A DNA stretch of 64,000 nucleotides from Pseudomonadota bacterium. GTDB taxonomy: Bacteria > Pseudomonadota > Alphaproteobacteria > Rhizobiales > Aestuariivirgaceae. Positions 28,887 through 34,924 of the stretch are shown here, piece after piece. Each line of letters begins with the position of its first letter. Position 1 is the stretch's first letter. The stretch covers positions 1 through 64,000 of the forward strand of contig CAUJIO010000082.1 in NCBI GenBank assembly GCA_963205315.1, given 5' to 3'. The notes beneath the pieces were generated by a model. It ran no database searches and had not been told where the DNA came from. It worked only from the letters and a program-made list of their open reading frames with translations. The position numbers and the translations under genes were made by a program.

Positions 28887-30299
28887 GTGACGTCTTTTTC
28901 AGACCTCAATCTTTCCCAGCCCATCCTCAAGGCGCTTGCCGCCGAAGGTTACGAAACCCCCACTCCCATCCAGGCCCAGGCCATTCCGCAGCTGCTCGCC
29001 GGCAAGGACCTGCTCGGCATCGCCCAGACCGGCACCGGCAAGACGGCGGCCTTCGCGCTGCCCATCCTGCAGAAGCTCTCGGAAAAGCCCGAGCGCGCCG
29101 CAAAGGGAACCTGCCGCGCCCTGATCCTGTCGCCAACGCGTGAACTCGCCTCGCAGATCGCCGAGAGCTTCAAGACCTACGGCCGCAATCTCAAGGTCAG
29201 CCGAGCCGTCGTCTTCGGCGGCGTCTCGCTCGGCAAGCAGATCGAGATCCTGCGCGGCGGTGTTGACGTTCTCGTCGCCACGCCGGGCCGCCTCGTCGAC
29301 CTGATCGAGCGCCGCGCCCTGACGCTGTCGAAGGTCGAGATCTTCGTGCTCGACGAAGTTGACCAGATGCTCGACCTGGGCTTCATTCATGCCATTCGCA
29401 AGATCACCGGCATGCTGCCCACCCAGCGCCAGAACCTGTTCTTCTCGGCCACCATGCCGAAGGAGATCGCAGGGCTTGCGGCATCGCTCCTGACCGATCC
29501 GGTCCGCGTTGAAGTAGCACCCGTCGCCACCACCGCCGAGCGCGTCAACCAGAGCGTTATCCATGTCGATCCCGCCAACAAGGTGAAGCTGCTGGCCGAG
29601 TTGTTGAAGGACAACAACATGACCCGCACGCTGGTGTTCACCCGCACCAAGCACGGCGCCGACAAGGTGATGAAGCATCTTTCCAATGCCGGCTTCACGG
29701 CGGCGGCGATCCACGGCAACAAGAGCCAGAACAACCGCGAGCGCGCGCTTGCGGGCTTCAAGGCCGGCAAGATCCTCGTGCTGGTGGCCACCGACATCGC
29801 CGCCCGCGGCATCGACGTCGATGGCGTGAGCCACGTCATCAACTACGACCTGCCGCATGTGCCGGAATCCTATGTCCACCGCATCGGCCGCACGGCGCGG
29901 GCCGGAGCCGAAGGCTCAGCCATCGCCTTCTGCACGCCGGAAGATCGTGGCCTGCTGCGCGACATCGAGAAGACCATCCGCAGCCAGGTTCCCGTCGTCG
30001 AACATGCGCTTGGCCTCAAGAACATCCAGACGCTCGCCCCGACCTTTGGCTGGAATCCCGCCGGCAATGGCGGCAAGCCCGGAAGCAAGCCGCGCAGCGG
30101 CAAGCCCGGCGGTGGCGGCAATCGCAATCATGGCAACGGGGCTCCGGCCAAGTCCAACGGTTCCGGCTTCCAGGGCAAACCCAAGGCCAAACCGCATCGC
30201 GGTGCCGCCACGGGCGCTGGTAACGGCTCGCCCAAGCGCAGCACCGGTGCCACCCCCGGCGGCAGCTGGATGAGCGATATCGGCAAGCGCCAGGCCTGA
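28887..30299 (+). CDS. DEAD-box ATP-dependent RNA helicase, RhlE-like
   Basis: The 470-residue protein has the Q motif (FSDLNLSQPILKALAAEGYETPTPIQ), Walker A AQTGTGKT, PTREL, TPGR, DEVD in place of DEAD, SAT, and the C-terminal helicase domain with HRIGRTARAG. The tail (from about residue 385) is Gly/Lys/Pro/Asn-rich and basic, as in RNA helicases that act on ribosome assembly or cold-shock mRNA. The DEVD form of motif II keeps the ATPase Asp-Glu pair. The start is uncertain: GTG at 28887 fits the usual family N-terminus, while ATG at 28821 would add 22 residues. A strong terminator follows. Confidence 0.92.
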   Translation: MTSFSDLNLSQPILKALAAEGYETPTPIQAQAIPQLLAGKDLLGIAQTGTGKTAAFALPILQKLSEKPERAAKGTCRALILSPTRELASQIAESFKTYGRNLKVSRAVVFGGVSLGKQIEILRGGVDVLVATPGRLVDLIERRALTLSKVEIFVLDEVDQMLDLGFIHAIRKITGMLPTQRQNLFFSATMPKEIAGLAASLLTDPVRVEVAPVATTAERVNQSVIHVDPANKVKLLAELLKDNNMTRTLVFTRTKHGADKVMKHLSNAGFTAAAIHGNKSQNNRERALAGFKAGKILVLVATDIAARGIDVDGVSHVINYDLPHVPESYVHRIGRTARAGAEGSAIAFCTPEDRGLLRDIEKTIRSQVPVVEHALGLKNIQTLAPTFGWNPAGNGGKPGSKPRSGKPGGGGNRNHGNGAPAKSNGSGFQGKPKAKPHRGAATGAGNGSPKRSTGATPGGSWMSDIGKRQA

Positions 30300-30356: not shown

Positions 30357-32561
30357 TCATGGCGCCGGTGATGGTGTCAGGGTGCAGCCACCGCGGTTAT
30401 TGCTGATGCCCGCGAATTCCTCGACGATCTTCGGCTGATCGTCGGCAGTTCCGGCCGACTCCCAGAACAGGTTCATCGTCCGCAGCGAATTGGGCATCGA
30501 GAATGTCCTCAGCCATGACGACGAGCCGCCACAGACCGCCACCGAGGTGCGCAAGTTGCCATCCTCATGCACCGGCGAAGCGGAATTCTGGAAATTGTCG
30601 AAATGATCGAAATTGAGAAGCTCGGAGAAGGCCACGTGGCAGGTGCGGCAGCTCTTGGCATAGACCTTGTGATAGAAGCGCTTCGCCAGATCGCTCTGCG
30701 CCTGCCAGCTCGCCGGCAGGTAGTCCTTGTCGAGCGTGTGACTGCCCTGATACCAGCCGGCAATTAACTCGCTGACACCGGCGGGCGGATCCGTCTTGAG
30801 GACATTCTGGTTCAGCTGATATATCGCCTCCTCCTGATCCGCCTCGGTTAGTCCGGATTTCGTCGAGAACGAGAAATTGCCGGTGTCGTAGGGCAGGAAA
30901 TGCGCGCCGATGTTAGCAGGTCCGGCACCCGGCGAGCCAAGCGGCGTCTCGGGGAAGCGGCCCGCATAGTGATCGCCGCCGTGGCAGGCGACACACGTGC
31001 CGGGCACGAACTTCTCGCCGCGCCCATCGAGATTGACGGACGGCAGGAGTTCTCCGCTCGGTCCGAAGATCAGGAAGCGCACGAAGGGCTTGTTGCCGTT
31101 GACGCCCGGCGAGACGCTGAAATCCATGGCGACGCAGGCAACCAGATTGCGCCCGTTCTTGGCATTGTTGATGGCGGTGTTGACCGCCTGCTGGGTCTCA
31201 TCCGTGGGACCCAGATGATTGCAGACATAGGCCGCCGTCCGGTTGTTGTTCGCCACCGAGTGATGGTTGCGCGTGAGATTCAGGTCCACGCGGTTGATAT
31301 AGGTGGCCTCCGCCTCGACCGCGCCAGCGGGCAGGAACGGCTTCATCTTCATCTTGCGCTTCCAGTCGCGGAAGGAGATGGCCCCGGCGAACGTGCCGTC
31401 GGAATTGCAACGCGTCACCGCGCCGATCGACAGATAGTAGCGGCATGCCGACATCCTGCTGTCGAGGCCCTTGGCGGCGAGGTAGAAGTTGTTGATGTCG
31501 ACATTGTCCGAGGCAAGGCCAGCTGGCGGCGGCAGATACTGGCCCACGTCCACGCCATTGAGTTTGGCCGACATCGCGAAGACATCGGGTGCTGCCGTTG
31601 ATCCGAGAAGCGTACGCGCCGATACGAAGTTCAGATAGTCGGGCACCGGGATCGAAGCCTTGGCGCCCTCGCATTCAAGCAGGATGGTGGCGGGAACGGC
31701 TGTCGACAACGGATTGAGCCCGAAGCTGTAGTGGCCATAGCGATTGACGGTATAGGGACCTGCCAGCACAGCACCGGTGTTGTCGAACAGCGTGGCTCGC
31801 CCGGCCGACTTGACACCGAACAACCCGAACTCGGCTCCGCATGGGCTGCCATCTGCCAACAGCAGGCGCCCGGTGATCTCGTTGCGGCCGTCCTGCGGTC
31901 CGACAAAGGGATCGTTGGCCGCTTCATCGCCGATCTTGATGCCCGTGTTGCAGACGGCGAAGGGCAGCGCCTTGTCCATCCGGCACATCAGCCTGTAAGC
32001 GCCGGGCGGAACGTCGAAGATCGAGATGACGCCGCTCAGATTGGCTTTGACGACCGGCGTCTTGAAGCCGGTCTTCGACTTCAGAAATGCTTCGACACCG
32101 GGCGTATAGACGCCTTCCTCCTCCGAGGTGGATGGATTGGAAAGCGGCGAGACATAATAGCCGCTGCGCAGGATGGCACTGTAGGTTTCGCCCGCTGGCG
32201 GCGTCGTTGCCGGAGCCGCGAAGTCTCTGTCCGGGCGGACTTCCGGCGGCGTGCCGATGGAATCGGTCGACACCACGATGCGCCGCTCGGTATAGCCGCC
32301 TTTGCCGTTGGAGATCAGCACATAGGCGAAGTGGAGGCCCTTGCCGGCCGGCAGTTCCCAGCTGATCGAAGCGCCATTCTTGGCGATGATGCGGCCATCG
32401 GTGACACGCCAGTCATAGGTGAGCGGGTTGCCGAACTGTTCCTTGGCCTTGACGCTGACATGCACCGTTGGACCCGCCGCAAGCGATACGGCCGCAGCAC
32501 TGATCAGCAGGAAACCGAAAGCAATGGCGTGGCCAAGGGCCTTGCCGAGATAACGTAACAT
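30357..32561 (-). CDS. Large secreted protein with two CxxCH haem-binding motifs
   Basis: The 734-residue protein has a signal peptide (LGKALGHAIAFGFLLISAAAVSLA). The N-terminal part contains immunoglobulin/PKD-like and carboxypeptidase-regulatory-like beta domains (VHVSVKAKEQFGNPLTYDWRVTDG; ISIFDVPPGAYRLMC). The C-terminal third has CVACH (residues 523-527) and CRTCH (638-642), so it should carry two c-type haems in the periplasm. Cys are also frequent elsewhere. The function is unknown; a redox or oxygenase role is possible. ATG at 32561 is favoured because GGGG stands six bases upstream; 32573 and 32564 are alternatives. Haem attachment would use the Ccm system encoded at 52963-55716. Confidence 0.8.
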   Translation of the reverse strand: MLRYLGKALGHAIAFGFLLISAAAVSLAAGPTVHVSVKAKEQFGNPLTYDWRVTDGRIIAKNGASISWELPAGKGLHFAYVLISNGKGGYTERRIVVSTDSIGTPPEVRPDRDFAAPATTPPAGETYSAILRSGYYVSPLSNPSTSEEEGVYTPGVEAFLKSKTGFKTPVVKANLSGVISIFDVPPGAYRLMCRMDKALPFAVCNTGIKIGDEAANDPFVGPQDGRNEITGRLLLADGSPCGAEFGLFGVKSAGRATLFDNTGAVLAGPYTVNRYGHYSFGLNPLSTAVPATILLECEGAKASIPVPDYLNFVSARTLLGSTAAPDVFAMSAKLNGVDVGQYLPPPAGLASDNVDINNFYLAAKGLDSRMSACRYYLSIGAVTRCNSDGTFAGAISFRDWKRKMKMKPFLPAGAVEAEATYINRVDLNLTRNHHSVANNNRTAAYVCNHLGPTDETQQAVNTAINNAKNGRNLVACVAMDFSVSPGVNGNKPFVRFLIFGPSGELLPSVNLDGRGEKFVPGTCVACHGGDHYAGRFPETPLGSPGAGPANIGAHFLPYDTGNFSFSTKSGLTEADQEEAIYQLNQNVLKTDPPAGVSELIAGWYQGSHTLDKDYLPASWQAQSDLAKRFYHKVYAKSCRTCHVAFSELLNFDHFDNFQNSASPVHEDGNLRTSVAVCGGSSSWLRTFSMPNSLRTMNLFWESAGTADDQPKIVEEFAGISNNRGGCTLTPSPAP

Positions 32562-32705
32562 CATGAACCCCATGACACTGTGGCAGGATCACCTGCGCTC
32601 GACGGCCCCGGCCACATTCTATCCACGACCGGCTGGGCTTCGCAATGCCTGAATTGCGCAGGCGTCATCAGGGGCTGACGATTGTCTGGCCTGGGATGAA
32701 TGAAT

Positions 32706-33873: not shown

Positions 33874-34860
33874 TCACGGCCCAGCCGTTGTTTCCTCCGG
33901 CCGGTTATCGAGCGGCACGCCTTCCGAGTTCCAGATGCGGAAGGCGATTGGGCCGATGAGATTTTCTTCCGGCACCATGCCGACCGCATCAGCAAACCGG
34001 CTGTCCTGGGAATTGTCGCGGTTGTCGCCCATCATGAAGTAGTGGCCTTCGGGGATCGTGTATTCTTCGGTGTCGTCGGCAGGCCCTCCGTCCATCTCAT
34101 TGGCTATGACGTAGGAACGGCCGTTGGGCAGCGTCTCACGCTGGAATGTCAGCCTGCCGCCGTCCGTAAACATGTCCGGCAATTGCACCGGCTCGAGTTT
34201 CACCGGCGCGCCATTGATCTGCAGCACGCCATGGATCATCTGGATGCGGTCGCCCGGCAAACCGATGACGCGCTTCACGTAGTCGACACCGGTGTCCGTG
34301 GGGAGCTTGAACACCGCGACATCGCCACGCTCCGGCGCATGCCCGAAGACGCGACCGTCGAATTGCAACAGGCCCAGGGGGAATGAATGGCGGCTGTAGC
34401 CATAGCGCCATTTGGACGCCAGCACGTAATCCCCCACCATATAGTTCGGTGCGAGGCTGGACGACGGGATGTTGAAGGGCTGCAGCACAAGGATCCGCAC
34501 CGGGTAGACCAGCACGATCAACAGCAGGACGGCAATGGCCGGAACCCCGGCAATCCAGCGATACCACGGCCGGGTCAGCGCCAAGTGCCGGATGCGGAAG
34601 CCGTGGACGAGACCGATCAGTCCGACAATGGCAAGCGTCCAGAGATCAGCCCTTGTGAAGGCCGCAAAGACGATGCTGCCATCAAGGATGGCACGATCTT
34701 CAAGCTCGCCGGTGGCGAAACCTGCAGCGAGGCCAAGCAGAAAATAACCCAGCGCCCATTTCCAGCGACCAAGCCACAGCATCAGCATCCCCGGTCCAAG
34801 AAAGATGCCGATGAACAGGAGCGACAGGATGCTGCGCGGAGGTGCGAGGGTGCTGGTCAT
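33874..34860 (-). CDS. lepB: Signal peptidase I with N-terminal multi-helix extension and variant active site
   Basis: The 328-residue protein has about four N-terminal hydrophobic helices (residues about 10-115) before the S26 domain; E. coli LepB has two. The nucleophile motif reads FNIPSSSLAPNYMVGDYVLASKW with Ser135, where most enzymes have PSGSMxPT. The general base is Lys196 in VDYVKRVIGLPGD, and HYFMMGDNRDNSQDSR is intact. Activity as leader peptidase is therefore likely, with altered substrate-pocket residues. It is not next to rnc-era, the usual context of the main lepB, so it may be a second paralogue. A terminator separates it from atpC. Confidence 0.85.
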   Translation of the reverse strand: MTSTLAPPRSILSLLFIGIFLGPGMLMLWLGRWKWALGYFLLGLAAGFATGELEDRAILDGSIVFAAFTRADLWTLAIVGLIGLVHGFRIRHLALTRPWYRWIAGVPAIAVLLLIVLVYPVRILVLQPFNIPSSSLAPNYMVGDYVLASKWRYGYSRHSFPLGLLQFDGRVFGHAPERGDVAVFKLPTDTGVDYVKRVIGLPGDRIQMIHGVLQINGAPVKLEPVQLPDMFTDGGRLTFQRETLPNGRSYVIANEMDGGPADDTEEYTIPEGHYFMMGDNRDNSQDSRFADAVGMVPEENLIGPIAFRIWNSEGVPLDNRPEETTAGP

Positions 34861-34924
34861 GGCTTTCACCTGTTGGAGATTAGATAACCCTGTCATCCAC
34901 TCCGCAAAGTCGCAAGCCCAGCAA

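Follow-up and report, generated by a model that had tools for sequence, protein, structure and literature searches.

The window, by which we mean the whole stretch of 64,000 nucleotides analyzed here, contains a solitary gene whose product most likely is exported and transfers electrons by means of two haems. The explanation that best accounts for our results, and in which we have moderate confidence, is that this product is an exported c-type cytochrome with two haems, that it belongs to a family for which the searched libraries hold no model, and that it was acquired as a single gene. The two CxxCH motifs, the family, its conserved residues, the swapping of modules, an empty site in a related genome and the linkage of a barrel gene to the cytochrome gene in relatives are all established here. 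The features of the gene and its product are the following:

30357..32573, minus strand: coding sequence of the two-haem protein, 738 amino acids (734 if the start is at 32561), supported by relatives
32475..32573, minus strand: putative export signal, Sec-type by eye and without lipobox, from hydropathy and a lipobox scan
32262..32468, minus strand: module 1, residues 36-104, beta-rich in the model and, by comparison, differently placed in the relative from G235
31983..32189, minus strand: putative module 2, residues 129-197, beta-rich in the model, boundary set by eye
31641..31883, minus strand: module 3, residues 231-311, from the model and from comparison with G235, where its counterpart comes first
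30426..31514, minus strand: conserved two-haem core, residues 354-716, from the family alignment
31125..31127, minus strand: Met483, possible partner of haem 1, from the alignment
30981..30995, minus strand: haem 1 attachment site CVACH (527-531), from a shuffling test and the alignment
30636..30650, minus strand: haem 2 attachment site CRTCH (642-646), from the same two analyses
30495..30497, minus strand: Met693, likely distal ligand of haem 2, from the alignment

The gene is a single open frame on the minus strand (30357-32573), with 738 codons counted from the first ATG. The ATG at 32561 is the fifth codon of this frame and gives the version of 734 residues with two CxxCH motifs that was described in the first-pass annotation. 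A GGGG stretch lies nearer to the 32561 ATG than to the first one; both the ATG at 32573 and that at 32561 are candidate start codons. An assembly artefact or a frameshift is ruled out, since the frame is open and the relative on L002 aligns almost end to end. Hydropathy and inspection by eye revealed an N terminus that is charged, then hydrophobic, and ends with small residues, and which therefore resembles a signal peptide of the Sec type, as expected for the secreted protein that had been proposed; a lipobox scan of the window protein found no lipobox. Thus, with two CxxCH motifs and an export signal recognized by eye, the protein has what generally marks a c-type cytochrome, namely CxxCH in an exported protein. 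The gene indeed stands alone, as had been noticed before: it is flanked on one side by a convergent DEAD-box helicase gene (end at 30299) and on the other by a divergent TMEM43-like gene (start at 32700), both names being our own reading of the sequences of these neighbors.

The protein is unfamiliar in the sense discussed below, but it is not an orphan, because 23 other family members were found. A scan of a genome collection covering 84,980 species with the single protein retrieved one relative, that on L002, which is 44-46% identical over nearly the full length. Within the genus the gene is present in one of 37 genomes, that of the window itself; it is present in two of 397 genomes of the order (own included), in one of 385 of the class (only the own genome) and, in a search with a core profile, in four of 398 of the phylum (own included). 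Around other members, the family was found in 1/78 genomes of the order of G848 (G848 itself), 7/185 of the class of G832, 6/54 of the order of G1250 and 5/150 of the order of G877. These clade counts are not independent of each other, since they share genomes, and the search centers themselves are counted. In total, 24 proteins from 21 genomes were identified as family members; the alignment contains 23 proteins from 20 genomes, the protein of G1212 having been dropped because it runs off its contig. The genome containing L002 (G1119) has a second copy (L010:346-4017), encoding a protein of 1224 residues in which RCC1 beta-propeller repeats are fused behind the core.

Several observations bear on the origin of the gene. 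The TMEM43-like gene is present in two of the 37 genomes of the genus, that of the window and G014. Only about 60 bases, without a cytochrome gene, separate the TMEM43-like gene from the helicase gene in G014, as compared with 2,400 bases in the window. Based on this empty site and on the rarity of the gene in genus, order and class, the two-haem gene probably entered the lineage of the window as a single gene, although its loss in the other genus members is also conceivable. In the tree, the window protein groups with both copies of G1119 (support 100/99), and then with the protein of G235 (99/97). The GC content at third codon positions is 0.785 for the two-haem gene and 0.705-0.854 for its neighbors, and its composition therefore bears no mark of foreign origin. 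Next to the TMEM43-like gene lies a signal-peptidase-like gene (window 33874-34896) for which G014 gave no match in a stretch where synteny is otherwise kept, so that the two-haem gene is not the sole difference between the two regions.

The two c-haem sites that the first-pass annotation had pointed out are confirmed as CxxCH motifs. Firstly, when the protein was shuffled 20,000 times, at least one CxxCH motif appeared in 114 cases and two motifs in none. Secondly, the motif of haem 1 is kept in 23/23 aligned proteins and that of haem 2 in 22/23, both lying within a core of about 360 residues common to the relatives, whose identity to the window protein ranges from 23 to 62% among the other aligned members. 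Fourteen residues are identical in all 23 rows (Y379, D430, R435, P524, C527, C530, H531, N588, Y608, P620, W623, C642, H646 and M693) and four more in 22 (Y380, N452, C645 and P694). In the protein of G1462, C645 is replaced by Phe, so that its haem 2 motif is CxxFH with a single cysteine. This copy (L046 / L056:1485-3434) also lacks a third CxxCH and lies downstream of a barrel remnant situated beside a frame that appears transposase-like by eye; it may be a decaying or altered copy.

The two haems appear to differ in their ligands. Because Met693 is invariant and lies 30-63 residues past the histidine of the haem 2 motif in all 23 rows, as in ordinary cytochromes c, haem 2 is probably a His/Met electron-transfer haem of the ordinary type. 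Besides Met693 and the histidines of the two CxxCH motifs, no His or Met is invariant in the 23-row alignment. Between the two haem sites there is no conserved His or Met, and the protein of G1365 has none at all from the haem 1 histidine to the haem 2 cysteine. Position 483 is Met in 8/23 rows (nine with that of G877, in which Met was assigned by eye because of a misalignment at this position) and Ile in 14/23; 12 of these 14 rows have a His six residues earlier, as read from the alignment rows. Judged from the alignment, haem 1 would have either a distal ligand that depends on the clade or an open site. There is no clear sign that one haem segment arose by duplication of the other: hhalign aligned 17 columns with a probability of 29.6%.

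The first-pass annotation had been unable to assign the protein to a known oxidase, peroxidase or dehydrogenase, and had proposed a distant homology search and a structure prediction. Our searches agree with its view, as no described family was matched. The window protein had no match above the cut-off in Pfam, NCBIfam or the PDB sequences, and neither had the cores of six relatives in Pfam and NCBIfam. Against PF13442, a class-I cytochrome c model, the window protein scored 16.2 bits, below the cut-off of 27; matches to this model at E up to 1 were obtained for 8/13 members (best E 0.00025), all of them short and sub-threshold, and the sub-threshold class-I cytochrome c match of L005 covers the haem 2 segment. 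A profile of 13 cores yielded nine matches at E up to 10 among the PDB sequences (best 0.11), all of them cytochromes or other haem proteins, and three of the alignments extended little beyond the flanks of a CxxCH or consisted of a gapped stretch with a CxxCH at its end. Neither the window protein nor the 13 family members matched PF03150. A tblastn search of a plasmid collection with four queries gave no match, and the 65 stretches retrieved from IMG/VR with the family alignment contained no relatives. In the literature we found no description of the two-haem family, which is a weak negative given the partial coverage and a family without a name; PMC11980579, in its available text, deals with a sorting system and not with this family. 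The structure prediction was informative in part: the AlphaFold2 model of the core, built from two sequences, has a mean pLDDT of 30, too low to be of use, and that of the N-terminal half, which is beta-rich, one of 42.8.

The properties of haem 1 raise the possibility that the protein is a two-haem enzyme, such as an oxidase, peroxidase or dehydrogenase, in which an open haem 1 would be catalytic and haem 2 would supply or remove electrons. It is chiefly the lack of a fixed partner of haem 1, with only the CxxCH histidine pair and Met693 invariant among His and Met residues and with G1365 as the extreme case, that makes us retain this reading as a tentative one, and the many invariant polar residues of the core fit an enzyme too. 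On the other hand, Met483 or the His six residues earlier could make haem 1 six-coordinate in most members, no substrate-linked gene was recognized in the neighborhood, and neither PF03150 nor solved haem enzymes were matched. The suggestion that the protein might be a new extracytoplasmic redox enzyme is thus allowed by the conserved residues, but the neighborhoods of the relatives, described below, fit electron transfer at the outer membrane equally well.

In contrast to the core, the parts of the protein around it vary. The module order is different in the relative from G235, where the stretch corresponding to module 3 (window residues 235-282) leads and is followed by the one corresponding to module 1 (29-96), which adjoins the core; the matches have E-values of 2e-5 and 2e-7, respectively, each from a single comparison. 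In other relatives, the core is preceded by an unlike region, whose length varies from 17 residues, in a protein cut by the contig start, to 450. Several relatives also extend beyond the core, by about 200 to 520 residues that often include a third CxxCH, and the post-core part of L006 matches Ig and cadherin models, with PKD below the cut-off. At the level of the sequence, the N-terminal modules are thus swapped and reordered between relatives. Their folds are less clear. A Foldseek search with the N-terminal model returned mostly assorted Ig-like and fibronectin-type folds, none at an E-value of 0.001 or better. The impression by eye that module 1 is PKD-like was not supported, its hhalign comparison with PKD-type regions of relatives giving a probability of 0.5%. 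Since the model is poor and these regions were not matched, we leave the module folds unnamed. The beta sandwiches seen in the N-terminal part by the first-pass annotation are therefore weakly supported: the low-confidence model is beta-rich, but the PKD-type comparison failed.

The gene neighborhoods of the relatives point to the outer membrane. In 8 of 22 of them (L027, L028, L029, L031, L048, L053, L054 and L055), a gene for an outer-membrane-type barrel adjoins the cytochrome gene on the same strand, the adjacency in L055 resting on the coordinates of L045 and L055. The eight barrel proteins are all homologous, have 288-323 residues and a signal-like start and, in seven cases, end with Phe. 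One of them has a weak MtrB_PioB match (E 0.0059); the others have at most a weak match of the Porin_4 type. A ninth case is G1462, in which the remnant just upstream of the cytochrome gene corresponds to 46 residues of the barrel. Many of the cytochromes next to a barrel gene have a lipobox, and the core is frequently part of a lipoprotein in relatives belonging to other classes than the window. This setting of a lipoprotein beside a barrel suggests that the relatives perform redox chemistry at the outer membrane. Beyond the barrel gene, on the side away from the cytochrome gene, lies a giant gene in 5/8 cases (L027, L028, L029, L031 and L048); the four giant proteins that were scanned match cadherin or bacterial Ig repeats, and that of L048 was judged by eye. 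The same four match the NCBI choice-of-anchor U domain, although in two cases the cut-off of this model is not reached, and the giant proteins L027:8339-12607 and L029:733-4362 have a CxxCH near the N terminus, which in the former lies inside a choice-of-anchor V domain. In G848, a gene for a CCP_MauG di-haem peroxidase (L024:6238-7338) adjoins the core-bearing gene.

A search of whole genomes with a barrel profile identified the barrel in 11 of 15 genomes. In G1308, G1310, G1295 and G1342, which belong to the order of G1250, it is encoded away from the cytochrome gene. At an E-value of 0.01, the barrel family was absent from the genomes of the window, G235, G1119 and G877, and no barrel gene adjoins the two-haem gene of the window. 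A role at the outer membrane may therefore not carry over to the subfamily of the window protein, which has no lipobox, no barrel neighbor and no barrel match in its genome.

The large and variable N-terminal modules, the fusion to RCC1 repeats in L010, the giant cadherin-repeat proteins beside other relatives and the CxxFH of G1462 would all fit a protein that functions mainly as a surface adhesin or binding protein, with a structural or vestigial haem core. We regard this as improbable, since few parts of the family are as well conserved as the haem sites and Met693, whereas other modules change. It is equally improbable that the protein serves as a haem-based sensor or as the carrier of a periplasmic partner encoded elsewhere, as the solitary position of the window gene and of several related genes might suggest, because Pfam identified no signaling domain in the protein and none was recognized directly beside the window gene.

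Our preferred reading of the protein as an exported two-haem electron-transfer protein can be set out as follows; haem loading, ligands, location and the role in electron transfer are what we infer here. The signal would export the protein, which would then receive two covalent haems. Haem 2 (C642-C645-H646 with Met693) would be a low-spin His/Met relay. Haem 1 (C527-C530-H531), having no fixed distal ligand, would be the likelier contact for a substrate or a terminal electron partner, and the polar core residues D430, R435, N452, N588, Y608 and W623 might join it at the place of contact. The variable N-terminal beta modules may fix the core to a surface or to a partner. The likeliest role would be to pass electrons between the periplasm or the outer membrane and something outside, given that the same core occurs as a lipoprotein beside a barrel in many relatives. 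A bolder idea, which we consider unlikely, is that the core represents two-haem enzymes of a lineage of their own, which arose independently of MauG and the peroxidases, combines an open haem and a relay haem with exchangeable surface modules and, in relatives, a barrel, and which acts on substrates outside the cell.

If our reading is correct, a two-haem cytochrome family scattered over one phylum has so far escaped modeling in the curated libraries that we searched. The known multihaem conduits would be joined by a redox protein that is small, modular and possibly surface-exposed and has two to three haems, and the same haem core would be paired with very different binding modules, with an outer-membrane barrel and with giant repeat proteins. 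Since haem 1 lacks a fixed ligand, the direct question arises of whether it is a relay or a catalyst.

How does the family compare with known systems? The class-I cytochromes c (PF00034 / PF13442) have a CxxCH followed by a Met, and the haem 2 segment fits this arrangement, as do the sub-threshold matches. On the other hand, the family stays under the Pfam cut-off and has one core of about 360 residues, and as to the class-I distal Met, located C-terminal to CxxCH, Met693 is invariant past haem 2 whereas haem 1 is followed by no fixed equivalent. With the CCP/MauG proteins (PF03150) the family has in common that one exported protein contains two c-type haems, of which one may be a relay and the other open. 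In the enzyme reading the logic would be comparable, but the sequence is not: comparison of the family profile with the CCP_MauG protein of L024 aligned 21 columns around CxxCH with a probability of 0.8%. The rubber oxygenases RoxA and RoxB are secreted, similar in size to the window protein and have two CxxCH motifs. A RoxA entry was presumably present among the PDB sequences searched, and none of the nine PDB sequences that the family profile retrieved at E up to 10 was such a chain. Finally, the family differs from the MtrAB/PioAB porin-cytochrome conduits in having two to three haems, where MtrA has ten or so, in its barrels of 288-323 residues and in the lack of a barrel in the window, but it resembles them in that the gene for an outer-membrane-type barrel directly adjoins the cytochrome gene in relatives.
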